50,968 nucleotides of DNA, from contig JAICNB010000014.1 in NCBI GenBank assembly GCA_025928935.1, positions 1 through 50,968 of the forward strand, read 5' to 3'. The stretch comes from Acidimicrobiia bacterium (GTDB lineage: Bacteria > Actinomycetota > Acidimicrobiia > Spongiisociales > ZC4RG35). The notes under the pieces are model-generated. The model searched no databases, had not been told where the DNA came from, and worked only from the letters and a program-made list of their open reading frames with translations. The position numbers and the translations under genes were made by a program. Shown here one piece after another: positions 323 through 21,690 of the stretch (positions are counted from its first letter, which is position 1; each line of letters begins with the position of its first letter).

Positions 323-1447
323 ATGGTCGATTGGACCTTCGAATGTCATCCGGCGCGCGCCGACGTTTGCGCAAACATCAAGCCCGGGTGGTCCGAGCCG
401 ACAGAGGCGGAGCCGAAGGAGCCCGAACGGGGAATGACCCACGCCTGCGAGTACATGCCGGGTCAGGCGATCATCAAGGGCCCGCCCGAGATGGCCGAGC
501 AATTCGGCTTCGTACCGGTCGATCCGATCGACATCCTCCCCGGGGAAGCCGTGTTCGAAGATGAGCTGGAAGAGGCCGCGGCCGCTCTCGGGCTCCTCGG
601 CGAGCACGACCGGGGGATCTACAAATTGAGCTCCGAAGTTGCCTCCCTCTTCGAGGCAATCGATCAGGTCCAAGCGGAGGGACAGGACGCCAGCCCGCAC
701 TACATGCTGCGTCCGGCGCCCTTCTGGAGAGGGGGGCCCTACAGCACAGTGAAGCGGCTTGGCTCCAAGTGGGGCTGGGACGATCTGACAATCACCGGGC
801 CGTCCAACGCCGAGCCAGGTGGAACCGTGATCGTCATCGACACCGGTGGTCATGACCTCATCGAACTGGAGGGGTTCGGGATCGAGTGCACGGACAAGGA
901 GTTGGAGCCTGCCCCAGACCCCCAGACGCAGTTCGACCGTCGGTACGTCGGGCACGGCACCTTCGCCGCCACCATCGCCAAGAAGTACAACCCGCACCTC
1001 AACGTAAAGCTGCTTCGTGGGTGGTCGAAGAACGGGATCCTCAGCGAAGCCACCCTTCTGATGGCCTTCATGCGGGCCGATCCGGCCGAGTCGGTGGTGA
1101 GCCTGTCTCTGGGCACCTATCCCTGTGGGCCCAACTACGACCCGCTCGGCGTCGAGGTCGCCCTCACTCTGGCTCGAGGGGGCCGGGTGGTGGCAGCCGC
1201 GGGGAACGACGGCCGCGACCACATCCCGAGGAGGCTCTACCCAGCCTCGCTGTCCAGAGTGGTCGGGGTCGGTGCATATGACACGAGCTGGGGCGAAGCG
1301 TCCTGGTCGAATCGCGGCGAGGCGTGGGCACCGGGCGAGGATGTCGTCTCCTGGTATCACGATGGGAGCAACGGGTCACTCGCTGCGTGGAGCGGCAGCT
1401 CTTTCGCCACCCCGCACTATGCGGCTCGTGTCGCCTCCGGGATCTGA
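323..1447 (+). CDS. Subtilisin-like (S8) serine protease without signal peptide
   Basis: 374 aa. The catalytic triad of the S8 family is present: Asp173 in VIDTGG, His211 in GHGTFAA and Ser360 in SGSSFATP, with the oxyanion Asn295 in AAAGNDG. The first ~165 residues are an acidic, non-hydrophobic extension with no signal peptide or transmembrane segment, so the enzyme probably works in the cytoplasm. ATG 323 is preceded by AAAGGGG. A possible -10 (TAGTTT, 257-262) lies upstream. The next gene, a TPR-CHAT protein, starts 7 bases after the stop (or overlaps it if the ATG at 1419 is used), so the two proteins are probably made together. The family assignment is secure. The target is unknown, but pairing with a caspase-like protein suggests a proteolytic signalling or defence role (inference). 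Confidence 0.92.
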   Translation: MVDWTFECHPARADVCANIKPGWSEPTEAEPKEPERGMTHACEYMPGQAIIKGPPEMAEQFGFVPVDPIDILPGEAVFEDELEEAAAALGLLGEHDRGIYKLSSEVASLFEAIDQVQAEGQDASPHYMLRPAPFWRGGPYSTVKRLGSKWGWDDLTITGPSNAEPGGTVIVIDTGGHDLIELEGFGIECTDKELEPAPDPQTQFDRRYVGHGTFAATIAKKYNPHLNVKLLRGWSKNGILSEATLLMAFMRADPAESVVSLSLGTYPCGPNYDPLGVEVALTLARGGRVVAAAGNDGRDHIPRRLYPASLSRVVGVGAYDTSWGEASWSNRGEAWAPGEDVVSWYHDGSNGSLAAWSGSSFATPHYAARVASGI

Positions 1448-1454
1448 TGGCCGG

Positions 1455-4025
1455 GTGACCGTCGACCTCGCTGGCCTGGTCCGGCTCGCCGAGCAGGACC
1501 CACAGTCTTGTCTTCGTGTCTGTCGGGAGATCCTGGCGGAACCGAGGTCGGATGGCCTCGATGCGCATGCACATCGTGCTCTCGGCATCGCCTACCGCGA
1601 GCTGGGTGAGATCGAGGACTCCATCCGGGAGCTCGAACTGGCTCGGGACCTCTACCGGCATTCGGGCGAAGACATCCACGAGGCCGAGACAGTCATATCC
1701 CTTGCCTGGTCGCTGGCCATCTCGGGTGGTTTGGTCGATGGTGTGGACCTGCTCGACCCGCTGCTGAATCACGCCGACGCCTCGATCCGGGCCCACGCCC
1801 AGGTTCAAAAGGCTGGTCTCATCGCCCGCACGGGTGACCTACGTGGAGCGATGAGTCTGTATGCGGAGGCACAGCAGGTTCTCGATGAGCTGAAGGACAT
1901 GCGCTGGCTTGCCATCCTCCACAGCACGAGGGGTTTGGTGGAGACCTACCTCACCGAGTTCGAGGCGGCGGAAGAGGACCTTGGTGACGCGAGGGACATC
2001 TACGACGAACTGGGTCAGCGCGCAGCCGCAGCGGAGATGACCCACAACCTCGGGTTCGTCGCCGTTCAGCGAGGCGACATCGCCCGTGGGCTTTCCCTGA
2101 TGCTGGAGGCCGAGAGTCTGCTCCAGGGCTCCGGGCTCCCCATCGAGGCCATCGCCTCGGATCGCGCCTACGCCTACATGCTGGCCGGGCTGCCGGCGGA
2201 GGCGTATCGGGAGGCGTCCCGTCTCGCCCGCCGGCTGGGCGCAAAGGGACAAGAGCTGGACCGGGCGGAGGCCCTCTACCTGGCGGCCCGGGCAGCTCTG
2301 GCCAATGGTGATGCCGGCACTGCGGTCGACGTCGCCGACGAGGCGGCCAGGTTGGCGGCCGAACAGGGTCGAACCAGGTGGGAGCTGATGGCCTCACTGG
2401 TGAGGGAGGAGGCATGCCTGCGGGGAGGTTTCCCGGGTGACCCCTCCGAGCTGGTCGCGCTGGCTGGAGCGCTCGCCAACCAGGGGACGCCCGTCGGCGA
2501 AACCCAGGCGTTGGCACTTGCGGCGCTTCGTCATCTCGAGGCAGGCGACGCCGACGCCGCCCACGCGGTGCTCACCTCTCTCCCCTCTTCGGACGGCGAG
2601 GAGACCGAGTTGTCCGTGCAGCTGCTCGTGGCCGTGGCCAGGGCCAGGGTGGCACTGGCCCAAGGGGACCGCCAAGCAGCCGCCACCGTGCTGGCGAAGG
2701 CAGCCGACCTGGTCGACGCGCAGCGATCGATGCTCAGTGCCACCGAGGCCAGAGCGGGGGTGAGCCAGCTTGCCGACGAGATCGCAGTGCTCGGTCTGGA
2801 GGCGATGCACGAGATCGAGCCGTCGATGATGGCCTGGACGGAACGATTCCGCGGCGCATCCCTTCGCGTTGCGCCGGTGGTGATGAGCCCGGACACGGAC
2901 CTGGCCGAGACCCTCGCCGAGCTTCGACCAATCGTGCGTGACCTCATGGCTCCAGGCATGGCCTCCGAGGACACCGCCGACCTTGCGACGGAGGCCCGTC
3001 GTCTCGAGAAGCGGGTACATGACCTGGCGATGGCACGCGAGGGTGACCCAGGGTCTCGAACCTCTTCAGACAGTGTCGAGGATGTGACCGCGGCGCTCGG
3101 TGCTCGTCACATGCTCTACATCTACGACATAGGTGCCCAGACCTACGGCGAGATGATCGGACCGAGCGGGATGGAGAGGGTCGAGCTGGGCGAACCCGAA
3201 CGGCTCAGATTTCTGGCCGGCCATCTGCTGTCAGCACTCCGTCGGGGCTTCATGCGTGGGAGGAGCTCGAGTGTCGTCCACGAGATGATCGCCGAGTTGG
3301 CCGGGCTGCTCCTCGCCCCCCTCGCCGGATCAGGGACCGAGGACGTAGTCGTGCCACCGCCCGATCTGCTTGGTCTCCCCTGGACCGCGATGGCGAAGGC
3401 GATCGACCCGGACCTCCGGATGAGCGTGTCCCCATCGGCGGGATTGTGGGCCCGGGCAGACGGCCAGTCGGCGAGACGAGGACGTTTCGGCGTGGTGGCC
3501 GGCCCCAGGCTGGAGTACGCACCGATGGAGGCGGAACGGGTGGGTGGCGTCTATGCGGGGGCGGACCTGCTCGCAGGGGGTGACGCCACGGTCGAGGCTG
3601 TCCTGAGGACGATGGCACGCTGTGACCGTCTCCATGCTGTCGCCCATACCCGGCTCCGTGACGACAATCCGATGTTCTCCGCCCTGGAGCTCGCTGACGG
3701 GTTCCTCAACCTGTACGACCTCGAAGGCCTGGAGAGCGTTCCAGACACAGTGGTGTTGTCGGCCTGTGACTCGGCCCATGACAACGTGGTCGGGGGCCAT
3801 GAGATGTACGGGCTGACCTCGGTACTCCTTTCGAGAGGTACCCGCTCGGTCATCGCCACGGTGGCGCCCCTTCCCGACTCGGCCGAGTCGGTCGAAACCG
3901 CGGTGAGGATCCACACCGCTCTGAACGAGGGTGCCTCGGCGTCGGCCGCTGTCCGTGACGCACAAAGCGGATTCGCCGCCGGAGTGGTCGACCCTTCCGT
4001 GGCCTTCGTCGCATACGGGGCCTGA
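1455..4025 (+). CDS. TPR-CHAT protein (caspase-fold protease with TPR-like array)
   Basis: About 856 aa from a GTG at 1455. An in-frame ATG at 1419, inside the protease gene, is the alternative start. Residues ~1-500 form repeated helix pairs of TPR type (for example HRALGIAYRELGE and HNLGFVAVQRGDIARG). The C-terminal ~250 residues are a CHAT domain: His731 in HAVAHTRL and Cys771 in VVLSACDSA occupy the caspase-type dyad positions, followed by the usual LLSRGTRSVIATVAP strand. CHAT domains are caspase-family peptidases often fused to TPR sensor regions. No transmembrane segment is seen. The neighbouring S8 protease at 323-1447 shares the transcript. The natural trigger and substrate cannot be read from sequence; the S8 protease is an obvious candidate partner. 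Confidence 0.9.
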   Translation: MTVDLAGLVRLAEQDPQSCLRVCREILAEPRSDGLDAHAHRALGIAYRELGEIEDSIRELELARDLYRHSGEDIHEAETVISLAWSLAISGGLVDGVDLLDPLLNHADASIRAHAQVQKAGLIARTGDLRGAMSLYAEAQQVLDELKDMRWLAILHSTRGLVETYLTEFEAAEEDLGDARDIYDELGQRAAAAEMTHNLGFVAVQRGDIARGLSLMLEAESLLQGSGLPIEAIASDRAYAYMLAGLPAEAYREASRLARRLGAKGQELDRAEALYLAARAALANGDAGTAVDVADEAARLAAEQGRTRWELMASLVREEACLRGGFPGDPSELVALAGALANQGTPVGETQALALAALRHLEAGDADAAHAVLTSLPSSDGEETELSVQLLVAVARARVALAQGDRQAAATVLAKAADLVDAQRSMLSATEARAGVSQLADEIAVLGLEAMHEIEPSMMAWTERFRGASLRVAPVVMSPDTDLAETLAELRPIVRDLMAPGMASEDTADLATEARRLEKRVHDLAMAREGDPGSRTSSDSVEDVTAALGARHMLYIYDIGAQTYGEMIGPSGMERVELGEPERLRFLAGHLLSALRRGFMRGRSSSVVHEMIAELAGLLLAPLAGSGTEDVVVPPPDLLGLPWTAMAKAIDPDLRMSVSPSAGLWARADGQSARRGRFGVVAGPRLEYAPMEAERVGGVYAGADLLAGGDATVEAVLRTMARCDRLHAVAHTRLRDDNPMFSALELADGFLNLYDLEGLESVPDTVVLSACDSAHDNVVGGHEMYGLTSVLLSRGTRSVIATVAPLPDSAESVETAVRIHTALNEGASASAAVRDAQSGFAAGVVDPSVAFVAYGA

Positions 4026-7279: not shown

Positions 7280-10200
7280 CTAGAACTCCGGTCCCTCCCG
7301 CTCCCCTCCGGTCGACTCGGTCCTGACGCGGCTGCCGAAGATGGCAGCGGGCTCGAGGTCTTCGGTGGTGTCGGAGCGGGCGGCGACCCAGACGGCGCCA
7401 CGGGCCAGCGAGCCGACCGGCTCGATCGAGCCGTCTTCGTCGCCGGCACCGCTTTCGAACAGCTCCTCTCGGGGCCACCAGGTCCGGTGGTGCCAGGTTC
7501 GCTCGAATGCACCGGTGGCCAGGTGCTCGGGGTCGAAGTAGCGCGGGTCGGCCCCGAAGTCACCCTTGGGTGTGACCTCGGACATGAACTCGAGCAGCGA
7601 TCGGCCCCCGCTCTCACCACCGATCGGCTGGAAGTTCCCCGGATCGGCCAGGATCGGGCCGAAGACCTCCTTCTCCCCGTGAGTCTCCAGCGAGTGGAGG
7701 AACGACGGGTCGTAGACCCCCTCGAAGAACAGCTCCGCCCAGCGCCATCGATCGCCTTTCTCCGGCCTGGCCTCCGCCTCGTATTGAGCCACGGATCTCG
7801 GGTCCTGATCAGGCCGGATCACCTCGGTCGGGTCGTCCGAACCGATGAGCACGGCCTGCTCGTTGCGAAAGGTCTGGACCGAGCCTTCGTATTGCGAGGT
7901 GAGCCAACCCCGCTCCGAAGCGAGCCGCACCGCACGGGTCTCGAATAGCTTCTCCCCTCGGGGTGAGAGGCCGAACTGGCAAACCGACGCCTTGATCACA
8001 CCGAACTCGACCAGGTCGACGCCCGTGTCGGGGACGGCGCCCCCCTTGCCGAAGGGGTACCAGATGAGCCGCGACAACACGGCGGACAGGCCCAGGAACT
8101 GCTCGCGGGCGGCATCGGCCACCCGGTCGGCGGTGAAGGCGGCGTCTACCTGCTCGGCAAGCTGGCGAATCGACTGCCCGTACCAGCGAAGGGCGAGACG
8201 CTCCTGCACCCGTCGCCAGGACACCGCGACGAGCACGAACAGGAGCCAGAACCCGATGGTGCCGCAGACGGGCCACAACAGCTCCCGCAGCTCGGATCCG
8301 GGGGCGGTGGCGTACCACCCTTCGGGTTGGGCGATTGCCCCGGTCACGAGCACCGAGACGTAGGTGAGGACGGTGAGGATGGTGAGACGTGACATCCGGC
8401 CCAGTGCGGGGAGATGCTCCTGATAGGCGGCCAGGGAATAGGCCTGGCCGATCCCGGCCCCGGTCACTATCCCACCCAGCACGGCGGCATAGGTGGCGGG
8501 CTCGGTGGCCGGGTAGCCGAGGAAGGTTATGGCCAGCCCGGCGAACAGGGCCCCGGCCAGCCCACCAAGCAGCATGCCGAGCCAGGTGGGCCCGGTCCTG
8601 ATCGGTGACAACCGCTCGCCCCGCGCCGTCGCCCCCTCCTTCAGCGCCTGCGCGCCGTAGGAGCGGAGCAGGACCAGGACGCTGACACAGGCCAGGGTCA
8701 GGGCGCCGAACAAGATGTTCCGGGTCCAGGTGTCGAGCTCGGTGATCCCCCAGCCCCGCACCGCACCGGTGAGGAGCAGGAGGCTCACCACCAGGGCAGC
8801 GAAGAGCACCGCGCCGGTGATGTGCCAAAAGGCATATCCGGGGGGCCGGTAGTTGGCCAGCGCCGCCATCTGGGTGTCGAGCGTTTCGAGGAGCCGGGCC
8901 ACCGCCGTCCGGTTCGACCTGGCGATGCCCTCGATCCTCGACCCGAGCTTCCCCAGCAGGCTGACCGCTGAGCCGGACTCCGATTCGTCGACGATGTCCT
9001 TGGCCGTCCCCACCAGGGTGTCCGCCGGCCTGGGAGCGAGATAGGCGGCGTCGTTGACCACGGCCCGCTGGCCGTGCACCTCGATAGGGCCCACACCGGG
9101 CGGCGGCTCGCTCCCATCGGCGGTCGACAGGATCAGGCTGCGCATGTCGCGCCACACCGCCTGGTCGATGGAGGGGCCGCCCTGGAGATCGAGTCGGCGC
9201 TCTGCCTGATGCTTCAGATCGGCGATGAGGGCGTCGAAGTCCTCCCCGTCAGCCGAAGGCTGGATCTTCCCCTTCCATACCACTTCGACAACCGACGAAT
9301 CCCCGACCAGGTCCTGCATGGTGCGCCCGGCCAGCTCGGAGAAGTCCTCGAACAGACCCTCGACGGCCCGGCGCGGCAGCGAGATGATGAACCGTCCCAT
9401 CTCCTTCAGGACCAGGGCCAGGGCCCGCAGCGGGCCGAGCTGGTGTCGGGGTGGGGGCTCGGGGTCTCTCACCTCGAAGGCAAGCCGGTCGAACAGGGGT
9501 GCCGAGCGGACAGCCAGATCGGATACCGCCGCAGATGGCGACGGGGCCTCGATCGTGCCCGGGGGCACCGGGAGCCGGCCCTCATGGTCGACGATCTCCT
9601 GCAGGGGCAGGGCGGGGCTCCTGCCTACCCGGACGTAGGAGCGGCTGAGCCGGACCTTGGGATTGTCGCCGAAGATCACCCCGGGGGTCAGACCGTCCAG
9701 GGCGCTTCCCTCCATCCCGCCGAACATGCCCAGGGTCACCGCCGCCTCCGCGGCGATATGACCGGCGAATGAGGGCGTCTCGGGTGAGATCGGCGCGGCG
9801 AAGTGCTGGTCCGACCTCCGGTCCTCCGGGACGACGACCAGGTTGGCGTCGACATGGGTGGAGAAGTAGGAGTCCTCCGGTGCCTCCAGCGTCTCCCAAT
9901 CGGGGAACCAGAGACGCACGATCCGGACCGACGACTTGTTCGGCGCCAGCGCGGTGAGCTGCTCGTGGACGACGTCCCCGATCCGAGCCACCTGCTCGGA
10001 GGCCACCACGTCGACCGGTGTCGCGATGACGGCGACCCGTATCTCGTCGGCCGCCCGGTCACCGATCGAAGCGAACAGCGGGACCTCGGTCTCCCCGAAC
10101 CGGTCGAAGAGGACCCCAGGCCAGGGATTGGCCCGGGTCCCCCTGGAGTCGACGAACCAGAAGGGCCGGATCAGGCCCTGTTCCACCATGGCGCCGAGGA

Positions 10201-10324
10201 TCGTGGCCGCCGCCCAGGCCGGGCCGGACCGATCCCCGACCAGCACCGTCGAGACCGACGTCCGGCGAACGGAGGGCGCTGGACCTCGCTGGGCAGTGCC
10301 TGCAACCCTGGGCTCGCGGGTCAT
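7280..10324 (-). CDS. Large six-TM protein of the tubulin/vWA operon
   Basis: 1014 aa; not a family I can name. The N-terminal ~490 residues are soluble, with alternating strands and helices and motifs such as VLVGDRSGPAWAAATILGAM. Six hydrophobic segments follow at roughly residues 498-523, 535-558, 578-600, 608-632, 646-668 and 680-703. The last ~310 residues are soluble, rich in acidic and aromatic residues, and end in PEF. The ATG (10324-10322) directly abuts the TAG stop of the tubulin-like gene (TAGATG), so translation is coupled. It is the last gene of the five-gene operon and probably the membrane platform for the GTPase, which is inferred from context only. Confidence 0.85.
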   Translation of the reverse strand: MTREPRVAGTAQRGPAPSVRRTSVSTVLVGDRSGPAWAAATILGAMVEQGLIRPFWFVDSRGTRANPWPGVLFDRFGETEVPLFASIGDRAADEIRVAVIATPVDVVASEQVARIGDVVHEQLTALAPNKSSVRIVRLWFPDWETLEAPEDSYFSTHVDANLVVVPEDRRSDQHFAAPISPETPSFAGHIAAEAAVTLGMFGGMEGSALDGLTPGVIFGDNPKVRLSRSYVRVGRSPALPLQEIVDHEGRLPVPPGTIEAPSPSAAVSDLAVRSAPLFDRLAFEVRDPEPPPRHQLGPLRALALVLKEMGRFIISLPRRAVEGLFEDFSELAGRTMQDLVGDSSVVEVVWKGKIQPSADGEDFDALIADLKHQAERRLDLQGGPSIDQAVWRDMRSLILSTADGSEPPPGVGPIEVHGQRAVVNDAAYLAPRPADTLVGTAKDIVDESESGSAVSLLGKLGSRIEGIARSNRTAVARLLETLDTQMAALANYRPPGYAFWHITGAVLFAALVVSLLLLTGAVRGWGITELDTWTRNILFGALTLACVSVLVLLRSYGAQALKEGATARGERLSPIRTGPTWLGMLLGGLAGALFAGLAITFLGYPATEPATYAAVLGGIVTGAGIGQAYSLAAYQEHLPALGRMSRLTILTVLTYVSVLVTGAIAQPEGWYATAPGSELRELLWPVCGTIGFWLLFVLVAVSWRRVQERLALRWYGQSIRQLAEQVDAAFTADRVADAAREQFLGLSAVLSRLIWYPFGKGGAVPDTGVDLVEFGVIKASVCQFGLSPRGEKLFETRAVRLASERGWLTSQYEGSVQTFRNEQAVLIGSDDPTEVIRPDQDPRSVAQYEAEARPEKGDRWRWAELFFEGVYDPSFLHSLETHGEKEVFGPILADPGNFQPIGGESGGRSLLEFMSEVTPKGDFGADPRYFDPEHLATGAFERTWHHRTWWPREELFESGAGDEDGSIEPVGSLARGAVWVAARSDTTEDLEPAAIFGSRVRTESTGGEREGPEF

Positions 10325-13300
10325 CTAGAACTCAGGTGTCGTCTGCGAGGCGCGGACCTGGAGGGCTACCGCCATTCGGTGGAGCTCTTCGTGGATCAGG
10401 TCGGTGGCCCCCAGCCAGGAGTTCTCCGGGCCGATACGGCCCTCGCGACGCTCCTCCTCGGCATGACGTGCGTAGTCCTCGTCGAGTTTGGTCACCAACT
10501 CGGCCAGCGCGGTTGCCCGCTTGCCCGCCTCCTCGAAGTCGATCTGGGCCACCCCGGCCTCCAGCCCGTAAGCGGTGCCCGAGGAGACCCACTCCTCCAG
10601 CACCGGGCTCAACTCCCGGTACTCGCCCATCTCGGCGCCAACGGTGCCCGGGTTGCGACCCAGCTCGATGAGGGTGTGGAAGATCCCCAGCATCTCGTCG
10701 GGCTTGCCGGCGTTGGCTGCGAAGGGGATGGCAAGGGCCAGAGTCTCGAGGAATGCGCCGAGCTGGCGGGGACGGTTCTCCCCCGGTGTGGTGACCAGAG
10801 GCGGCGACTCGATCACCTGCCCACCACGTCCCTTCTCGAGCCTGACCAACGTCGAACCGCTCTCCTGAACGACAGTGAGCAGGCCGAGGAAGCGAGCAAT
10901 GAACCAGCCGCGGACCAGGGCCCGCACCATCGGCATCGGCAGGGGGATGGCCCGTGCCAGCGGCCGGCTCCGGCGCCACTTCCAGAAGTCGCGGAGACGG
11001 GTCGCTCGTGAGGCCGCGGCGTACCCGTCGGCGATGGGATCGATCAGCGACCGGAACACCGCCGGGTGCAGGGCCCCCTCCAACATGCTGTAGACGGAGA
11101 TCCGCCTCACCCGGTCGCTCTGGGTGACGTTGTCGTGGATGCCGTCGGTTCTATCGGCCAGCTTGGAGTCGAGGAACTGGGTCACCCAGCGCTCGAGACG
11201 GTGGTTCTTGAGGGGGATCTCCCCGGGCACGGCATGGGTGGTCAGCACCCGGTCATGAACCTCGCTCATCAGGACCGGGTCGACATGAACCAACGGCTCG
11301 GCCGCCTCGAAGGCCGCCTCCAATGCCGACTGGAAGGCCCTCTCCCGGTCGCGCACAACTGCCGCGGGCACCTTCCGATCCGGCTCCTGGAGATAGGCCC
11401 GCAGGCCCTGGGAGAGGAAGTCGTCGAAATCTGTCCCCTCACGGGTCAGCCAGGCCCTGGCCCGCAGCACGAGCTCGTCGCGCTCGAGGTGGAGGCGGAA
11501 CCGGGCTGGCCGGTCTGGCTCGCCGCCGAGGAGGATCGCCTCGCTCGGCTGCCACTGGTCCACCACCTCGAACATGTCCCGCACCTGGGCTCCCAACCGA
11601 CGGTCGGTGGGCTGGGAATCCTCCAGGTAGTTACCGGTGACGACGGCGTGACGAACGGTGCGCCAACGCTCCGCCGGCGCCCCGTAGTCGACCCCGAGGG
11701 TGGAGGTGAGCAGCTCGTCGAACAACGACGGGAAGCTCTTCGGGTCGATGACCATCGCCACCGTCTTGCCCGGGATCAGGTCGTCGGATACCGCCTGGTC
11801 ACGCTTCGGGTTGTGCCGGGGCCAGCCGTCCACCGGGGCGGCCTCGACATCGGCCGGGTCGAGCTTGCGCTGGAGATCGCCCAGGGCCAGCCTGACCGAC
11901 TCCATCAGCGGCATCACCACCGACTCGTCGAAGTCGAGAAGGAGGGCGCGAGCGATGAAGCGGGATTTCTCCTCCATCCGCTGGAAGACGAGGGTGTCCA
12001 CCGCCTGAGCTGCGGCCATCCGCACCGCCTCGTGCTCGGAACCGAGCTGGCCGCTGAGCTCCCCGAAGGCGGACTGGACGTTGGAGCGGACGTGTGAGGA
12101 GAAGCTCTCGAACTCGATCCGCTCGTTCTCCAAGTCGTCACAGGCAGCCCGTATCTCGTCCCTCACCAGCTCGAGCAGCTCGGCTACGACCGGCAGCCCG
12201 TAGCCGGAGGCGATGCTCCCCGTCTCCCGCAGCAGCCGGCCGGTGACCTCCTTGGTCCACACCCGAGCGCGCTCCCGGATCCTGGTGTCGTACCGTTCGT
12301 TCTCGCCGGGTGCGAGCAGCTCAGCCTCCTCGACGATGGCGGTGAGCCACTCGTCGATCCGGCCCTTGGCCCCCACGTTCTCCACGGCGCCCTGATAGAC
12401 CTTCTCGGCCAGGCCGCCGGTGATCACTTGCCGCTCTCGCAGTGGGAGGGCGATCGCATCGACCACCTGATCCTGGCCCCGCTCGGTGATCTCGACGTTC
12501 TTGAGGTACCCTGTGAGCCGGTCGGCGGCCAGCTCCTGGGCGATCACGTCCGGGGTCAGCCCCTCGTATCGGTCCAGACCCTCGGTGGCGAGACGATGGC
12601 CGTTGACCAGCGTGTCGACGGCATCACGGACGATGCGCCGCTCGGAGTACTGCTTGAAGCGGTCCACACCGAGGTCCACCTCGGCGTAACCGAGGCCCTG
12701 GAGAGTCCCGACATAGGGCGGCTCCATCAACATGTGCATCGGGCCGCCACGGTCGCCATAGGTCCCTGCGCTGCTCTGCCAGTTCGCCGCGGTGTAGACC
12801 ACGAAGTCTTCCTGGACCTGGGGGTCGGTCATGACCGCGGAGAGACATCGGCCCATCACCCGATAGACGTCGGTCTGGTCCCCGAACACCACACCGCTGG
12901 TGTTGGCATGGCCGACGAGGAACGAGAACGCCGGGCCGCTGCGGGAGATCTCACGCTCCTCCCCGGCGACGGAGACCCGCCCACCGGCGTAGACCCCACC
13001 GAGGAGCTCGGCGAGGGCGGCCGCCGAGTTGGGATGGACCCCGGCCCTGGCCCCGGCGGCGAGGCTCTGGAAGACGTCGGCTGCGTAGAGGATGCCGAAG
13101 GAGTTGTCGAGCCACTGCTCGCCCTCGGCCCGGAGCATGTCGGCGATGTCGAGGAAGAGGCCCGCCCCGGTTCCACCGGCCAGGGAGGAGACGATCATCA
13201 GCACCGGCTCGCCTCGCTCCTCGTAGGTCCCCGAGCCCTCCTCGTCGGCGGTGGCGCGGAGCCGTTGCAGCTCGCCGAGGGCATCGGCGGTGCGTAGAGC

Positions 13301-13714
13301 CGTGATCTTGCCCTGGATGGCGGTGTGGATCCGCTCCTGCTGATCGAGCCCGAGGACCCGCCCGATGGCCCGGTACTGGCCTGCCCCATGGGCGATGGGG
13401 ACGTTCATGAAGTCGGGGTCGACCCACCATCCGTCGAAGTTGGTCTGCTTCCTGGTCAGCCGCTCCACCACCGTTGCGAATGGCACCCCGTCCCGATGCA
13501 GCGACATGTACTCGATCGGCGGGAGAAGCTCGGGGCGGCCGGGGAGGAGCGGCGCCTCCTGGGTCGATGGTGTGTCGATGTGGAGGAATTGCCAGCCCTG
13601 GGGCAGGCCGGAGGCCCAGCCGATCTCACCGAGCCACTCACCGAGGGACTGCTTGAGATAGCGGATCGTCTTCCCCCCGGACCCTCCGAGGCCAATCACC
13701 AGAAAAGATCTCAT
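10325..13714 (-). CDS. Tubulin/FtsZ-like GTPase
   Basis: 1129 aa from ATG 13714. The N-terminus FLVIGLGGSGGKTIRYL is the glycine-rich first nucleotide loop of the FtsZ/tubulin fold, and SSLAGGTGAGLFLDIADML (~residues 175-195) is the tubulin signature (GGGTG[TS]G-like). About 800 residues of mostly helical sequence follow, far beyond FtsZ length; this resembles the large tubulin-like proteins annotated as Tubulin_2. It ends in PEF, as does the next protein. The reading frame stays open upstream to 14062, but that stretch lies inside the vWA gene and is Arg/Pro-rich shadow sequence. The ATGA overlap at 13711-13714 fixes the start. Expected to bind GTP and perhaps polymerise under the membrane (inference). 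Confidence 0.88.
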   Translation of the reverse strand: MRSFLVIGLGGSGGKTIRYLKQSLGEWLGEIGWASGLPQGWQFLHIDTPSTQEAPLLPGRPELLPPIEYMSLHRDGVPFATVVERLTRKQTNFDGWWVDPDFMNVPIAHGAGQYRAIGRVLGLDQQERIHTAIQGKITALRTADALGELQRLRATADEEGSGTYEERGEPVLMIVSSLAGGTGAGLFLDIADMLRAEGEQWLDNSFGILYAADVFQSLAAGARAGVHPNSAAALAELLGGVYAGGRVSVAGEEREISRSGPAFSFLVGHANTSGVVFGDQTDVYRVMGRCLSAVMTDPQVQEDFVVYTAANWQSSAGTYGDRGGPMHMLMEPPYVGTLQGLGYAEVDLGVDRFKQYSERRIVRDAVDTLVNGHRLATEGLDRYEGLTPDVIAQELAADRLTGYLKNVEITERGQDQVVDAIALPLRERQVITGGLAEKVYQGAVENVGAKGRIDEWLTAIVEEAELLAPGENERYDTRIRERARVWTKEVTGRLLRETGSIASGYGLPVVAELLELVRDEIRAACDDLENERIEFESFSSHVRSNVQSAFGELSGQLGSEHEAVRMAAAQAVDTLVFQRMEEKSRFIARALLLDFDESVVMPLMESVRLALGDLQRKLDPADVEAAPVDGWPRHNPKRDQAVSDDLIPGKTVAMVIDPKSFPSLFDELLTSTLGVDYGAPAERWRTVRHAVVTGNYLEDSQPTDRRLGAQVRDMFEVVDQWQPSEAILLGGEPDRPARFRLHLERDELVLRARAWLTREGTDFDDFLSQGLRAYLQEPDRKVPAAVVRDRERAFQSALEAAFEAAEPLVHVDPVLMSEVHDRVLTTHAVPGEIPLKNHRLERWVTQFLDSKLADRTDGIHDNVTQSDRVRRISVYSMLEGALHPAVFRSLIDPIADGYAAASRATRLRDFWKWRRSRPLARAIPLPMPMVRALVRGWFIARFLGLLTVVQESGSTLVRLEKGRGGQVIESPPLVTTPGENRPRQLGAFLETLALAIPFAANAGKPDEMLGIFHTLIELGRNPGTVGAEMGEYRELSPVLEEWVSSGTAYGLEAGVAQIDFEEAGKRATALAELVTKLDEDYARHAEEERREGRIGPENSWLGATDLIHEELHRMAVALQVRASQTTPEF

Positions 13715-16080
13715 GCTTCCCCAGTCCTTTCCATGTCGGCGACCATATTCATGGCCGTGAACTCGGCTGCGATCAGGCCGAGTGAGTCGTCGATGATCTC
13801 GGCGGCGATGCGGCTGGCATCGGCGCCACGGGCAGTTCGGATGTCGAAGAGCAAAACGCCATGTGCCTTCTGGCTGGTTCCCTCTGCCAACCGCTCCAGT
13901 TGGGTTTGGGAGAGGCCAATAACCACCAGCGGGCCCAGTGCATCCCGGGCCCGTCCCCGGTAGGAGCCTTCGGTGACGAGGGTCCGGCCGGGGAGACCGG
14001 GCCCCTGATGTGCCCCGATGACGTCGGTGCCCATGCCGATGCGGGCGTAGGGAGGCAGCCATGGGATCGGCGACACCATCCGTTGCATGCGGAAACTCCC
14101 TGCATCGAGACGGGACGGGGTACGGCGGGGCAGTCGGAATTGGCTGTCGACCGGAGCCTCGGCCAGGGACATGTCGAGCTCGCCGTACTCGGTGGGTGAC
14201 ACCTCAACGGCGAATTCGGCGTACCTGACCCGGTTCCGTCGCGGGTCGGGGATGCGGCCGATGAGCCGGTTGACCCCGTAGAGGATCGCCCAGAGCAGGG
14301 CCAGCATCAGCAGCATCAAACCGACGACGATCACCGCAACAAGAGCGGGATTGGCCCTGGGTGTCACCTCGAAGTCGATGGCGAGCAGCCCTTCCTCGGC
14401 ACGATCCGGGCTCGTGGCCGGGACCGAGCGGGTCGGGATCTCGAGCACCTGATGGGCGAACCCGGAGCGGTCGAGGGTGAGGTCAATGGTCACGGTCTGC
14501 ACCGGTCCCGCCTCCATCTGGAGGCAATCCGCGCCGGCGAACCCGGCGGTGGCGTTGATGACCTCCCCGTTGGCGGCGGTCATGGCGGCTCCTGGCGGGG
14601 TCAGACAGAGCTCGCCCCCGTCCCTGGGATCGACCTCGAGGTCCACGGCGAAGGGCCCGAGCCCCTCCCCGCTGACCGGACCGGGCTGGGTGACGATGGC
14701 CGGGGCATTTATCTGCTCGTTGAGGGGGAAGGTCTGGGTGACGCTCTGGGTGAGGCCCGGGCCCGAGACCATCTCGACTCGGACGTCGAAGCTCCCGGCG
14801 ATCGGCAAGGCGGACACCCTGATGGACCACCCGGTCCCGTCGGGGGCACTCACCTGGCCGTTCTCCGAGTCGACCTGGATGCGACCCAGGGCCTCACCCT
14901 CGAGACGACCGTGAGGCCCGTCGGCGACCACCAGGAACTCGGCCGGCTCGTCCTGATAGAGAGATGGCGCCGAGCTCTGAACGACCGGGGTCGCAGCCTG
15001 GGCCGCCACCCAGACACACGCCTCGGACACACCGGACATCTCGACCGAGAATGGAGCACCCACCGGGCGGGCCAGAACCACGTTCATCCCCGAATCGGCG
15101 TCGCTCGTCGTCGACGGATCGGGCAGGGTCGTGGCGGCCAGGTCTGGCGGGCTGCCCGCGCTCCCCCGCGTGATGAGCCGGACCTCGGTAGCCAGTTGAT
15201 ACGGCGCAGGGCCGGCGTCCACCACCGCCTCGTTCACCATCAGGTTGCCGTTGACATCAGGTGCGGCATCGGTCAACTGATAGGCGCCGACCTGGGAGGC
15301 GCACGCCATGATGAAGGGGAGTCGGCTGGCGTCGTCGACCGACTGGAACGACCCGTTACCCGGCCCGCATTGAAGACTGGGATCGCCCCCCATCCCCTGC
15401 AACACCCGGCGGCTCGCATCGTCGAGCTGGCTCTCGGTGCCGAGCAGCATGATCTGGGCACTGACCCCGGCCGCTCCGAGCTGGTCGGCGTAGCCGCCGG
15501 CGTCGCAAATGAGGCCAGGCATCAGGGCCTCGGCCTCGGTCACGTTGGCCTGGGTCACGAGCTCGGGGAAGTAGTTCCGCTCCAGGCCGTCCGCGAGGTA
15601 GTCCTCATCGAGGTCGTGCTCCCCGTCGGTGAACCAGAACAAGATCTGACAGGAGGCGTCCGACCCGGCGAAGGCGCCGGCAGCACCCTCCATGGCGTAG
15701 ACGTAGTCGGTGTGGAGCTGGTCCTCGACCGATCCGACGGCGTCGACCCGCTCCAGTGCGGTTGCCAGGGTGTCCTGGTCCAACACCATCCACTCGCCAG
15801 GTCGATAGTCCTGGCCGAAGCCGGCCACCTGGATCTCCACCTGACTGACCCGGTCGGCCAGAGAGGCGTAGGAACGAACGACGGCCCGGGCCCCGGTCAG
15901 CCGCTGGTCGTCGGGATCGGTCCGGGCCAAAGAGCCGGATTGGTCGATGAGGAGCAGCACCTGCACGGCCGCGTTCTCGTCCACGACGCAATCGCCGGGT
16001 AGCTCCGGTGTCTGGGCCAGGGCGACACCGGCCGGCAGCAGGGCCAGACCGGCGAGAGCCGCGAGGAGGAGACGCCTCAC
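13711..16080 (-). CDS. Membrane-anchored vWA-domain protein
   Basis: 789 aa from a GTG at 16080, set by the GTGA overlap with the preceding gene. A cleavable signal peptide (RRLLLAALAGLALLPAGVALA, then QTPELPGD) is followed by a von Willebrand A domain with the MIDAS motif DQSGS and a later FTDGEHD. Beta-rich segments come next, then a single hydrophobic helix (ALVAVIVVGLMLLMLALLWAI) at ~residues 575-600 and a ~190-residue cytoplasmic tail. The topology is therefore an extracellular metal-dependent adhesion-type domain joined through the membrane to a tail that could meet the tubulin-like GTPase. An open frame continues to 16335 but is overlapped by the next gene and lacks coding character. 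Confidence 0.88.
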   Translation of the reverse strand: MRRLLLAALAGLALLPAGVALAQTPELPGDCVVDENAAVQVLLLIDQSGSLARTDPDDQRLTGARAVVRSYASLADRVSQVEIQVAGFGQDYRPGEWMVLDQDTLATALERVDAVGSVEDQLHTDYVYAMEGAAGAFAGSDASCQILFWFTDGEHDLDEDYLADGLERNYFPELVTQANVTEAEALMPGLICDAGGYADQLGAAGVSAQIMLLGTESQLDDASRRVLQGMGGDPSLQCGPGNGSFQSVDDASRLPFIMACASQVGAYQLTDAAPDVNGNLMVNEAVVDAGPAPYQLATEVRLITRGSAGSPPDLAATTLPDPSTTSDADSGMNVVLARPVGAPFSVEMSGVSEACVWVAAQAATPVVQSSAPSLYQDEPAEFLVVADGPHGRLEGEALGRIQVDSENGQVSAPDGTGWSIRVSALPIAGSFDVRVEMVSGPGLTQSVTQTFPLNEQINAPAIVTQPGPVSGEGLGPFAVDLEVDPRDGGELCLTPPGAAMTAANGEVINATAGFAGADCLQMEAGPVQTVTIDLTLDRSGFAHQVLEIPTRSVPATSPDRAEEGLLAIDFEVTPRANPALVAVIVVGLMLLMLALLWAILYGVNRLIGRIPDPRRNRVRYAEFAVEVSPTEYGELDMSLAEAPVDSQFRLPRRTPSRLDAGSFRMQRMVSPIPWLPPYARIGMGTDVIGAHQGPGLPGRTLVTEGSYRGRARDALGPLVVIGLSQTQLERLAEGTSQKAHGVLLFDIRTARGADASRIAAEIIDDSLGLIAAEFTAMNMVADMERTGEA

Positions 16081-16496
16081 AGCTCTCCGGTCCAGACTCG
16101 GGCGATGTAGAAGGCGAGACGCAGGCCGTGCCATCCGATGGCGAGGGCGAGGGAGACGAGCAACCCGGCCCACCCGATGAGGCTGGGGCGCCAGGCCGGC
16201 TCGTGCCATCGGCCGCCGGCACTCTGCCGCTCGTAGCGGAACACGGCGAACGCCGGCAAGACGAGGACGAGGGTCACCACGAGGGCGACGATGGACCTGC
16301 TGAACGAGGCTGTCATGCCCGGGGCGAGATTCCACGGCTCACCCAGGGCGAGGAAGGCGATGAGCAGGGCGCTGAGGGCCAGGACCGCCACCGAGGCATA
16401 GAACCAGCGGCTTGAGGTGGCCACCCTCGACCTTGCCGCGGACCGCCCGGTCGTGGTGGTGGCGCCGCCGCCGGGAATGGGGACGTTGCTGCTCAC
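16077..16496 (-). CDS. Small three-TM protein
   Basis: 139 aa. A Thr/Arg-rich N-terminus of ~28 residues precedes three hydrophobic segments (FYASVAVLALSALLIAFLAL, SIVALVVTLVLVLPAFAVF and LIGWAGLLVSLALAIGW). No family recognised. It overlaps the zincin gene by 4 bases (16493-16496) and the vWA gene by 4 bases (16077-16080), so its product is made in step with both and is probably a subunit of the same envelope complex. Confidence 0.8.
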   Translation of the reverse strand: MSSNVPIPGGGATTTTGRSAARSRVATSSRWFYASVAVLALSALLIAFLALGEPWNLAPGMTASFSRSIVALVVTLVLVLPAFAVFRYERQSAGGRWHEPAWRPSLIGWAGLLVSLALAIGWHGLRLAFYIARVWTGEL

Positions 16497-17131
16497 GACC
16501 CTCCTGCCAGCGTGCTCAAGGTGTCGAGGAACTCATCACCGTGACCCTCCACCGCGGCCAGGTGTTCCTCCAGCACGAGATGATGGGCCAGCTCGTGGAT
16601 CAGAGACCACGCGATAAGCGGCTCGTCGAGGGTGATCGAGTCGGTATTGGGGTCGTACAGACCTCCCAGGTCGCCGTCGAGGACGCTCGAGGTGACCGAG
16701 ACCGGGCCGACACCCCAGTCCTCGACCACCTCGTCGGCGATGGTCTGAGCCTCGGAAGGCGTTATCTCGTAGAGGAAGTTCTCGATCCGATCCTCCCCGA
16801 TGTGGTCGTGGACCACGCAATAGTCCCACCGGCACACCGCCAGCTCCTCGCCGGCCGGATCGATCTCGGCATAGACCGCAGCATCAGGTGGGAGGACGGT
16901 CTCCTCGGACTCGGGCAATGGGTTGATGGTTCCCGCCGCCACTTCGGCCGTACGTGGCGCGTCACCACGAATCGCGGCGAAGGTCACAATCAACAACAGG
17001 ACCGCCCCCAGTCCCCAGAACCAGCGCAGCGAGGGGCGCTCGGGGCGCGTCGGGGCAGGCACCGGCACCGGTGTTGCCGAATCGAGAATGGGCAGCGGTC
17101 CCCCGAGACGCTCAGGCTCGGTGTCTCTCAC
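16493..17131 (-). CDS. Membrane-anchored HExxH zinc peptidase-like protein
   Basis: 212 aa from a GTG at 17131, first gene of the operon. A Pro-rich cytoplasmic N-terminus is followed by one membrane helix (RWFWGLGAVLLLIVTFAAI) and a ~150-residue domain outside the membrane. Near residue 178 lies HELAHH, and about 16 residues later EGHGDEF supplies a likely third His ligand; this HExxH…HGxxF layout is seen in SprT/WLM-like zincins. Two Cys (CRWDYC) could form a disulfide. TACCAT lies 10 bases upstream of the GTG and could be its -10; no Shine-Dalgarno is seen. The longer open frame (to 17299) would overlap the divergent 54-aa gene and its ribosome site, so I reject it. Confidence 0.8.
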   Translation of the reverse strand: MRDTEPERLGGPLPILDSATPVPVPAPTRPERPSLRWFWGLGAVLLLIVTFAAIRGDAPRTAEVAAGTINPLPESEETVLPPDAAVYAEIDPAGEELAVCRWDYCVVHDHIGEDRIENFLYEITPSEAQTIADEVVEDWGVGPVSVTSSVLDGDLGGLYDPNTDSITLDEPLIAWSLIHELAHHLVLEEHLAAVEGHGDEFLDTLSTLAGGS

Positions 17132-19528: not shown

Positions 19529-19933
19529 ATGAAACGCAATGTGATCGGAACGATCCTGATCACCCTGCTCGTCGTGGGCGCCTTGGGCGCGATCGGCTTC
19601 GGCCTCTTCCAGATGGGCTACCAGCAAGGACTGGTCGAAACCGGGACCGAGGTGGTGGTCGACACGACACGCGGGATCGGGCACTGGTGGGGACCGGGTT
19701 GGGGCGTCGGATTCGGATTCTTCGGGTTCTTCTTCAAGATCCTGTTCGTCATCCTCCTCATCGGCCTCATCTCCCGTCTCTTCTTCGGGCCACGCCGCTG
19801 GGGGCCAGGGCCGTATTGGGGCCGGGGATGGCACGAGGGGGAGTACTCCCCGGACCAACATCTCGCCGAGTGGCATGACAAGGCGCACGGCGGGGACACT
19901 CCCCAGAAGCCCGGGCCCGATCAGGGCACCTGA
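19529..19933 (+). CDS. Small two-TM protein preceding a two-component system
   Basis: 134 aa from ATG 19529, which has AAGGAG at a good distance; the in-frame ATG 27 bases upstream lacks one. One N-terminal helix (NVIGTILITLLVVGALGAIGFGL), a Gly/Trp-rich stretch, a second helix (FFKILFVILLIGLISRLFF), then a Trp/Pro/Gly-rich tail ending with LAEWHDKAHGG. Similar small proteins often accompany OmpR-type regulator and kinase genes in actinobacteria. The role is unknown; it may sense envelope stress or be a target of the system. Confidence 0.75.
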   Translation: MKRNVIGTILITLLVVGALGAIGFGLFQMGYQQGLVETGTEVVVDTTRGIGHWWGPGWGVGFGFFGFFFKILFVILLIGLISRLFFGPRRWGPGPYWGRGWHEGEYSPDQHLAEWHDKAHGGDTPQKPGPDQGT

Positions 19934-19961
19934 GCCACGGCCGGTCGCGACAATGGGGGCG

Positions 19962-20642
19962 ATGCAGAAGATCCTCGTGGTCGACGACGAGATGAAGATC
20001 GCCCGCCTCGTGAAGGACTACCTGAGCGAGGCGGGCTTCGATGTGACCCTGGCCTCGACCGGGCCGGCGGCGGTGGCGTCGGCCCGGTCAGAACGGCCCG
20101 ATCTCGTGGTGCTCGACCTGGGCCTCCCCGGCATGGACGGATACGACGTCACCCGGGCGATCAGGGGTGGTGGGTCGGCGATACCGATCATCATGCTCAC
20201 CGCCCGGAGTGAGGAGACAGACAGGATCGTCGGCCTCGAGCTCGGGGCCGACGACTACGTGGTCAAGCCCTTCAGCCCTCGCGAGCTGGTGGCGAGAGTC
20301 AAGGCGGTGTTGCGCCGGGCAGGGGGTGAGGTGGCCACGGAGACGATTCGTGCCGGCGGCCTGCTGATCAGCCTCCCTCACCGCACCGTCGAGAGCGGCG
20401 GACAGCGCATCGAGCTGACCACATCCGAGTTCGAGCTGCTCAGGGTGCTCGTCTCGAGCCCGGGAAGGGTGTTCACCAGAGGTCAGCTGCTCGACTCGAT
20501 CAGGGGTGTCTCCTTCGAGTCGTACGAGCGAGCCATCGACGCCCACATCAAGAACCTGCGCAAGAAGATCGAGCCCGACCCGCGTCACCCGATCCACGTC
20601 CTCACCGTGTACGGCGTCGGCTACAAGTTCAACGATGCCTGA
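19962..20642 (+). CDS. OmpR/PhoB-family response regulator
   Basis: 226 aa from ATG 19962 (MQKILVVDDE); an in-frame ATG at 19953 is possible. The receiver has acidic pair Asp8-Asp9, phosphoacceptor Asp52 (VVLDLGLPGMDG) and Lys102 (VKPFSPREL). The C-terminal winged helix (LTTSEFELLRVLVSSPGRVFTR … HIKNLRKKI … VYGVGYKF) is typical of the OmpR class. It overlaps the kinase gene by 8 bases. Confidence 0.95.
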   Translation: MQKILVVDDEMKIARLVKDYLSEAGFDVTLASTGPAAVASARSERPDLVVLDLGLPGMDGYDVTRAIRGGGSAIPIIMLTARSEETDRIVGLELGADDYVVKPFSPRELVARVKAVLRRAGGEVATETIRAGGLLISLPHRTVESGGQRIELTTSEFELLRVLVSSPGRVFTRGQLLDSIRGVSFESYERAIDAHIKNLRKKIEPDPRHPIHVLTVYGVGYKFNDA

Positions 20643-21690
20643 TCCACGCCGGCACGGGCCACCGTGGGCTCACGACCGATCCGGCCAGCACAGCTGGGGG
20701 CCGCCGGGTGGTTTCGTCCTCCGCTGGGTCATCGGCCTGATCCTCTTCCTCGTCGTCCTCGGGCCCCTCTTCGGATTCCTCGTCTCGGGGATGTTCGGCG
20801 ACTTCCACGGTCCACGTCGGCTCGTCATCGTGGGGCTCGCCGTGTTGGTCCTGGTTGGTGTGGCGATGTTCGCCCGGAACCGGTTCGGTCGCACCTGGGC
20901 TCCCATAGGCCAGCTGATCGACGCCACCCGCCGTCTCGGCGATGGCGAGACGGGGGTGCGCATCCCGATCAACGAGCCGGGCCCGCTCGCCGCGGTGAGT
21001 GGCTCCTTCAACCGAATGGCGGCACGGCTCGAGGAGGAGGACGAGAGAAGACGCCGCCTCCTTGCCGACCTCGGCCACGAGCTTCGCACTCCACTGACCG
21101 TTGTCCGAGGCGAGATCGAAGCGGTGATCGACGGGCTCCACGACCCGTCGCAACTGTCCAACGTGATCGACGAGGTCGAATTGATGGAGCGCCTCCTCGA
21201 GGACCTCCGTGTGCTGACGCTGGCCGAGGCCGGCAGGCTTCAACTGCATCGGGAGCCGACCGATGTCGAATCCGTGGTGGGCGACGTCATTGCCTCCTTC
21301 TCAGCCCCGATGGAGGCCCACCACATCGAACACAACGTGTCCATCGAGCCCGGGATTGCCGAGTTCGACGCCGATCCCTATCGGCTTCGCCAGGTCCTGT
21401 CCAACCTCGTCTCCAACGCGATCAACCAGATGCCGGAGGGCGGCACGCTCGCTTTGACCGCAGGGGCGGATGAGGCGCGGCTCCGGATCGGGGTGGCGGA
21501 CACCGGGCCCGGGATCCCACCGGACCGGCTGGAGCAGGTGTTCGAGCGGTTCGTGAAGTCTGGCGACTCTGCCGGCAGCGGTCTCGGCCTCAGCATCGCC
21601 CGCGACCTCGTGGAGGCCCACGGCGGGACCATCAGCGCCGCCAACCGCCCGGAGGGCGGTGCGATCTTCACCATCGACCTGCCCCGCTAG
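20635..21690 (+). CDS. Sensor histidine kinase
   Basis: 351 aa from ATG 20635, overlapping the regulator stop. Two membrane helices at ~30-51 and ~62-80 with almost no extracellular loop, HAMP-like segment ~85-135, H-box His148 in LADLGHELRTPLT, N-box NLVSNAINQ, G1 VADTGPGIP, F-box FERF and G2 GSGLGLSIARDLVEAHGG: a complete class I kinase. The very short loop between helices suggests that it senses within the membrane or through the small neighbour protein (inference). Its TAG stop lies in a CTAG shared with the stop of the convergent gene. Confidence 0.94.
   Translation: MPDPRRHGPPWAHDRSGQHSWGPPGGFVLRWVIGLILFLVVLGPLFGFLVSGMFGDFHGPRRLVIVGLAVLVLVGVAMFARNRFGRTWAPIGQLIDATRRLGDGETGVRIPINEPGPLAAVSGSFNRMAARLEEEDERRRRLLADLGHELRTPLTVVRGEIEAVIDGLHDPSQLSNVIDEVELMERLLEDLRVLTLAEAGRLQLHREPTDVESVVGDVIASFSAPMEAHHIEHNVSIEPGIAEFDADPYRLRQVLSNLVSNAINQMPEGGTLALTAGADEARLRIGVADTGPGIPPDRLEQVFERFVKSGDSAGSGLGLSIARDLVEAHGGTISAANRPEGGAIFTIDLPR

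Follow-up and report, generated by a model that had tools for sequence, protein, structure and literature searches.

A four-gene core around a tubulin-like GTPase in actinobacterial operons, with an exchangeable membrane-anchored hydrolase

The DNA analyzed here (the window) is a stretch of 50,968 nucleotides, positions 1 to 50,968 of contig JAICNB010000014.1 from an Acidimicrobiia bacterium (assembly GCA_025928935.1). Five minus-strand genes run from position 17131 to position 7280 and encode, in order, an anchored zincin peptidase, a small protein with three transmembrane (TM) helices (3TM), a von Willebrand factor A (vWA) protein, a tubulin-like GTPase (TUB), and a large membrane protein (TMC). 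Comparison with relatives points to a general unit of four genes, 3TM-vWA-TUB-TMC, in fixed order in about 36 actinobacterial operons, and to an optional hydrolase, predicted to be membrane anchored, that swaps among unrelated folds (zincin, trypsin-like, metzincin, and HNH nuclease). Both findings are new here, as is a model in which TMC is predicted to fold like a degenerate tubulin. Gene order, folds, topology, and selection are read or predicted throughout from sequence, structural models, or synteny.

The operon is real and more than a chance arrangement. The zincin and 3TM genes share a GTGA overlap (16493-16496), as do the 3TM and vWA genes (16077-16080), while the vWA/TUB junction is an ATGA overlap (13711-13714) and the TUB/TMC junction is TAGATG (10322-10327). 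The coordinates and junctions given in a first-pass annotation of this DNA were right on re-inspection, and its claim of tight coupling is borne out. The zincin/3TM GTGA junction is kept in three species, with all three congeners showing it. The operon had been thought absent from one congener (G002), which was wrong, as the G002 contig breaks off within the vWA gene; at that locus (L120), the zincin gene precedes 3TM and the truncated vWA gene. In pairwise comparison with another congener (L006), synonymous divergence (dS) was equal in all five genes, at 0.35 to 0.39, and the ratio of nonsynonymous to synonymous divergence (dN/dS) was 0.046 for TUB, 0.082 for TMC, 0.131 for 3TM, 0.153 for vWA, and 0.238 for the zincin. 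With equal dS and low dN/dS, we conclude that all five are genuine, constrained genes that evolve under purifying selection. Moreover, selection loosens from the inside proteins to the outside ones, and the surface parts evolve fastest.

The general unit is smaller than the operon in the window. The gene after TUB belongs to one homologous family, TMC, in 38 loci. A TMC model built only from the four nearest members reached 25 members with E values below 1e-5, a figure that includes the four themselves; E values obtained later are inflated, since the members had by then entered the model. At the other end, the first core gene encodes 3TM (139 amino acids [aa]; 16077..16496, minus strand), and a small protein with two or three TM helices precedes the vWA gene directly in about 36 actinobacterial operons. 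BLAST homologs of 3TM were found in L006, L007, L032, and L042, and because homology was shown for these nearer loci only, 3TM beyond them is a claim of place and topology. A 149-aa open reading frame upstream of 3TM in L007 was judged spurious. From the conserved TMC after TUB and the small TM protein before vWA, the general unit is 3TM-vWA-TUB-TMC. The exact five-gene set of the first-pass annotation stands at this locus but not as a general unit, as the set is local to one genus and the last four genes are the conserved ones. Those four are not scattered among relatives, whereas the peptidase is replaced or absent elsewhere. The core mostly holds together on the TUB tree. Its distribution is patchy, and Tubulin_2 genes of any kind occur in 5 of the 34 genomes in the family, 21 of the 395 in the class, and 10 of the 296 in the phylum, counts that are lower bounds because draft contigs, such as that of G002, end inside operons. 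The catalogue of loci was built by walking open reading frames, so that for some relatives the reading frame and start site are only approximate.

TUB (1129 aa; 10325..13714, minus strand) is, by profile and structural model, a cytoplasmic member of the FtsZl1/Tubulin_2 family with an intact GTP-binding signature. It matches PF13809 (Tubulin_2) with an E value of 3.4e-42 (145 bits; cut-off, 27). A T1 loop, GLGGSGG, lies at about 13673-13693 and a GGTGAG box at about 13160-13177, and the motifs GGSG (residues 10 to 13) and GGTG (residues 180 to 183) are conserved in alignments of relatives. The model (predicted local distance difference test [pLDDT], 83; predicted template modeling score [pTM], 0.73) aligns with CetZ at a Z of 23.3 over 312 residues (3.7 Å) and with tubulins at a Z of about 20, which confirms the tubulin fold first proposed for this protein. 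The aligned ranges run from residue 1 to about residue 1003 and take in both tubulin domains, which a helical insertion separates; in the model, long helices at residues 416 to 618 and a later helical region correspond to the long helical or coiled-coil middle and the mainly helical C-terminal part of the FtsZl1 family. TUB has the fold and GTP-binding signature of CetZ, FtsZ, and tubulin but differs from them in its helical insertion of about 450 residues and its membrane-gene partners, and identity over aligned residues is 11 to 15%. A match over both tubulin domains bears on a question from 2010, when sequence analysis showed the first domain only. TUB was found in no phages, and six distant matches were found in plasmids. 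In L042 (9956-13205, plus strand), the tubulin gene lies in two frames, owing to a frameshift or an assembly error.

The vWA protein (789 aa; 13711..16080, minus strand) starts with GTG at 16080 and is predicted to span the membrane. It has a signal peptide, a domain predicted outside with a DQSGS metal-ion-dependent adhesion site (MIDAS) at about residue 46 (about 15931-15945), one late TM helix at about residue 581 (about 14281-14340), and then a cytoplasmic tail of about 188 aa. The match to Pfam VWA_2 (E value of 2.6e-5, 25.2 bits) is just below the curated cut-off of 27. An outside MIDAS vWA domain with a cytoplasmic tail, mostly of 150 to 280 aa, recurs in nearly all relatives with TMC. 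Prediction agrees with the topology originally suggested for the operon, with the tubulin inside and the vWA domain and peptidase outside.

An anchored enzyme with its catalytic domain predicted outside adjoins or lies inside the cassette at 13 loci, and its fold is exchangeable. The zincin type adjoins the cassette in the window and L006; a trypsin-like (Trypsin_2) type occurs in L032, L082, L035, L088, and L104; a metzincin-like type with HELGHxxxxxH occurs in L087 and L107; and a GmrSD_C/HNH nuclease type occurs in L024, L114, L111, and L113, with three TM helices fused to the HNH domain in L111. L041, in which an HNH protein lies 1.5 kb away, was left out of the 13. Where measured, the gap between the enzyme gene and the neighboring cassette gene is -17 to +51 bases, and in L087, two small genes for predicted membrane proteins or lipoproteins lie between TMC and the enzyme. 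On the TUB tree, a quick tree with some long branches, the four types require at least three switches, the minimum possible, and each type fits a single origin. Points against the mechanism proposed below are that many operons have no recognizable enzyme and that the TMC of L026 (4087-7338, minus strand) breaks the rule of an outside enzyme, as it carries a C-terminal trypsin-like domain predicted to be cytoplasmic. In addition, a cytosolic docking peptide common to all the enzymes and 3TM was considered and rejected, as it appears only in L032 and L082 (FEF(E/D)Y) and loosely in L087 and L107 (DPF/DPWG), and the idea fails in the window, L035, and the HNH operons. We note that the 3-TM and trypsin-like proteins of L032 (6635-7051 and 16462-17424) and of L082 (6056-6490 and 15481-16542) start nearly alike, with FEFEYG or FEFDY, a possible cytosolic docking motif with a looser DPF/DPWG form in the metzincin operons.

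The zincin of the window (212 aa; 16493..17131, minus strand, with a GTG start at 17131) lies in the same place in L006 and L120. It has a short cytosolic tail, a single TM helix at about residue 36, and a catalytic domain predicted outside, with HELAHH at residues 179 to 184 (16580-16597) and HGDEF at residues 197 to 201 (16529-16543). Searches against Pfam and NCBIfam profiles gave only weak matches below cut-off, to SprT-like (E value of 0.03; 14.5 bits versus a cut-off of 25.6) and TIGR04338 (E value of 0.005; 16.7 bits versus 90), and a search of the zincin and one metzincin against PDB sequences gave nothing useful. The SprT-like and TIGR04338 (Rv0185) zincins are alike in having HExxH in the matched stretch, but the matches fall far under the curated cut-offs, and the window protein is membrane anchored.

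Perhaps the zincin gene is an unrelated neighbor that overlaps the core by chance. In seven genomes, anchored relatives with 30 to 40% identity are encoded by solitary genes that have no tubulin gene beside them, and the bacterial family to which the source belongs has such stand-alone relatives. This separability weighs against counting the zincin as part of the machine. A chance neighbor is nonetheless rather unlikely, as three species retain the 4-base GTGA overlap and other operons have other anchored hydrolases at the opposite end. Given the stand-alone homologs, we regard the zincin not as a core part but most plausibly as a module that the operon acquired at its 5' end in this genus only. 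The stand-alone proteins (L128 to L134, in G012, G013, G019, G015, G018, G553, and G557) are anchored zincins with a single TM helix, HEVAH...HGEDF in most, a GLEVCGFDYC-like motif, and cytosolic tails that are short and in many cases acidic. We know of no description of this family.

TMC (1014 aa; 7280..10324, minus strand) comprises an N-terminal α/β domain, a region of five or six TM helices (about 8225-8836), a coiled coil, and a C-terminal α/β domain. It had been described as a six-helix protein; hydropathy gives five clear helices and a marginal sixth near residue 613, and the label undersells a gene with a tubulin-like model. Most relatives (28 of 35) have an even number of TM helices, 2 or 6, which fits both halves lying on the same side of the membrane, and the big domains are predicted to be cytoplasmic. 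Relatives begin to align only at residue 22 or 23, and the true start may thus lie some 20 codons further downstream. In the model (pLDDT, 73; pTM, 0.57), the N- and C-terminal α/β domains are confident and the TM/coiled-coil middle is poorly predicted. VIA-align placed CetZ1 best (Z of 11.1 over 246 residues, 4.3 Å), on a scale where the best Z without a clear match is typically 7 to 8 and up to 14 for mostly helical models. Tubulin and FtsZ took the first seven rows, with alignments spanning residues 22 to 24 through about 1000, and the next row held unrelated Ras chains (Z of 8.4, first 213 residues only). Weighing against a tubulin, Foldseek found no match at an E value of ≤0.001 among PDB and viral folds, and hhalign of TMC with TUB, whole and by domain, found no homology. 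TMC also had no match in Pfam, NCBIfam, or PDB sequences, and the GTP-binding signature GGGTG(S/T)G is absent from its sequence and from the family alignment. Thus, that TMC is a degenerate tubulin with a TM insertion is plausible on one model, without sequence support, and not established. We speculate that TMC may be a membrane-embedded pseudo-tubulin without a GTP site that pairs with TUB, such that the polymer would be built into the membrane and drive the exchangeable surface enzyme, a tentative idea that we think somewhat more apt to fail than to hold.

How the operon might act can be sketched. We infer that assembly is driven by GTP, that TMC provides the anchor, that vWA and 3TM provide the coupling across the membrane, and that the hydrolase is localized in this way. 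TUB would assemble in the cytoplasm when bound to GTP, and TMC, possibly a degenerate tubulin paralogue, would join or cap the assembly and fasten it to the membrane. Coupling to the outside would come from the vWA tail and 3TM, and there the vWA domain may grip a ligand or partner via a metal ion. The optional surface-anchored hydrolase, the zincin in this genus, would be concentrated at the assembly and act on external or envelope substrates. That a GTP-controlled, TMC-anchored tubulin assembly in the cytoplasm places a vWA/enzyme complex at the cell surface seems to us the likeliest mechanism, although as a proposition it is evenly balanced. The tubulins and FtsZ proteins known so far are brought to the membrane mostly by separate adaptors. 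If true, a tubulin-fold protein that crosses the membrane itself would link a GTP-driven polymer with the cell surface in a new way, and with a pseudo-tubulin TMC, the uncharacterized FtsZl1 family, an open case since 2010, would gain a definite partner and a geometry that can be tested. A first handle on the output of these operons comes from the exchangeable exo-hydrolase.

The first-pass annotation suggested envelope remodeling, contact sensing, or conflict as a possible role. Alternatively to the mechanism above, the operon may encode a machine for envelope or membrane remodeling, as proposed by Makarova and Koonin (PMC2875224), in which TUB filaments would shape the membrane, vWA and TMC would serve as anchors, and the hydrolase would trim the envelope locally. 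Every partner is membrane associated, and the coherence of the core on the TUB tree is consistent with this published proposal. The distribution is patchy in both class and phylum, however, and thus the function is not a basic one of the envelope; moreover, a nuclease as a swap-in enzyme is hard to square with envelope trimming. We consider remodeling unlikely, and the same holds for a cell-surface conflict system, in which the anchored protease or nuclease would be an effector against phage, incoming DNA, or neighboring cells and would be triggered via vWA and the tubulin. Unrelated enzyme folds swap in one role, the enzyme evolves fastest, and the distribution is patchy, all in favor of this reading. 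TUB relatives also occur in operons of GAP1-N2, a predicted conflict system; the L039 relative has a TIR-WD40 gene as neighbor, and another, on a Thermus plasmid, lies close to brxL. PADLOC, however, gave no convincing match for the core proteins, GAP1-N2 is absent from this genome, the immediate flanks of the window operon are ordinary genes, and the enzyme domains belong to generic secreted types. Finally, the role of the tubulin assembly might be no more than to place exoenzymes that feed the cell on external protein or DNA. In favor, the anchored enzymes, proteases and nucleases alike, have catalytic domains predicted outside, and one HNH protein near its own operon has an Excalibur domain. 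This reading is improbable, as many operons lack an enzyme, a cytoskeletal GTPase seems costly for nutrition, and the zincin has no known substrate.

Other genes were noted around the window operon and its relatives. On the plus strand of the window, 1125-4025 encodes a TPR-CHAT protein with a caspase-like peptidase domain (CHAT E value of 2e-22); it is followed by a sulfate permease-STAS-cNMP gene and a zinc alcohol dehydrogenase gene next to the operon. Upstream of the operon is a two-component response regulator and histidine kinase pair (19875-21690, plus strand). In L039 (15976-20345, plus strand), vWA-TUB-TMC is followed by two back-to-back genes whose products have propeller-like regions; the second product also has a TIR domain at its N terminus. 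In L077 (7404-15363), from a Thermus oshimai plasmid, vWA and tubulin-like genes are followed immediately by a hypothetical gene and brxL of the bacteriophage exclusion (BREX) system, with a TROVE gene upstream.

The operon can be placed among known systems. Makarova and Koonin described FtsZl1 with neighboring vWA genes in 2010 and proposed membrane remodeling, a reviewer put forward transport and signaling instead, and actinobacterial members are mentioned (PMC2875224); the statement in the first-pass annotation that FtsZ-like families near vWA genes had been noted before is correct. Common to those operons, as the main text presents them, and to the window cassette are a Tubulin_2 family TUB, a linked vWA protein with a MIDAS and signal peptide, and membrane partners, but the window cassette is without a protein kinase, P-loop GTPase, or OmpA gene. 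That main text presents no four-gene core, exchangeable anchored hydrolases, or tubulin-like TMC, and peptidases and nucleases go unmentioned in it. Kaur et al. (2020; PMC7159879) placed actinobacterial tubulin and vWA genes in GAP1-N2 systems, predicted conflict systems that have in common with the window an actinobacterial tubulin with an α-helical C-terminal region and a membrane vWA protein. The reduced cassette of the window differs in having no GAP1 gene: GAP1-N2 (PF20013) had no match in this genome (G000), and only 1 of 20 genomes tested had it; the same search was positive in G748 and in C. glutamicum, a laboratory organism that has a Tubulin_2 gene. No DO-GTPase or FNIII component was recognized in the cassette, the wider genome not having been searched for them. 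In L044 (Salinibacterium xinjiangense, a relative with two TM helices in TMC), L076, and L090, TUB and TMC are homologous to those of the window, and L090 encodes GAP1-N2. Overall, the window operon belongs with the FtsZl1/vWA operons as an actinobacterial variant and is related to the GAP1-N2 tubulin systems.

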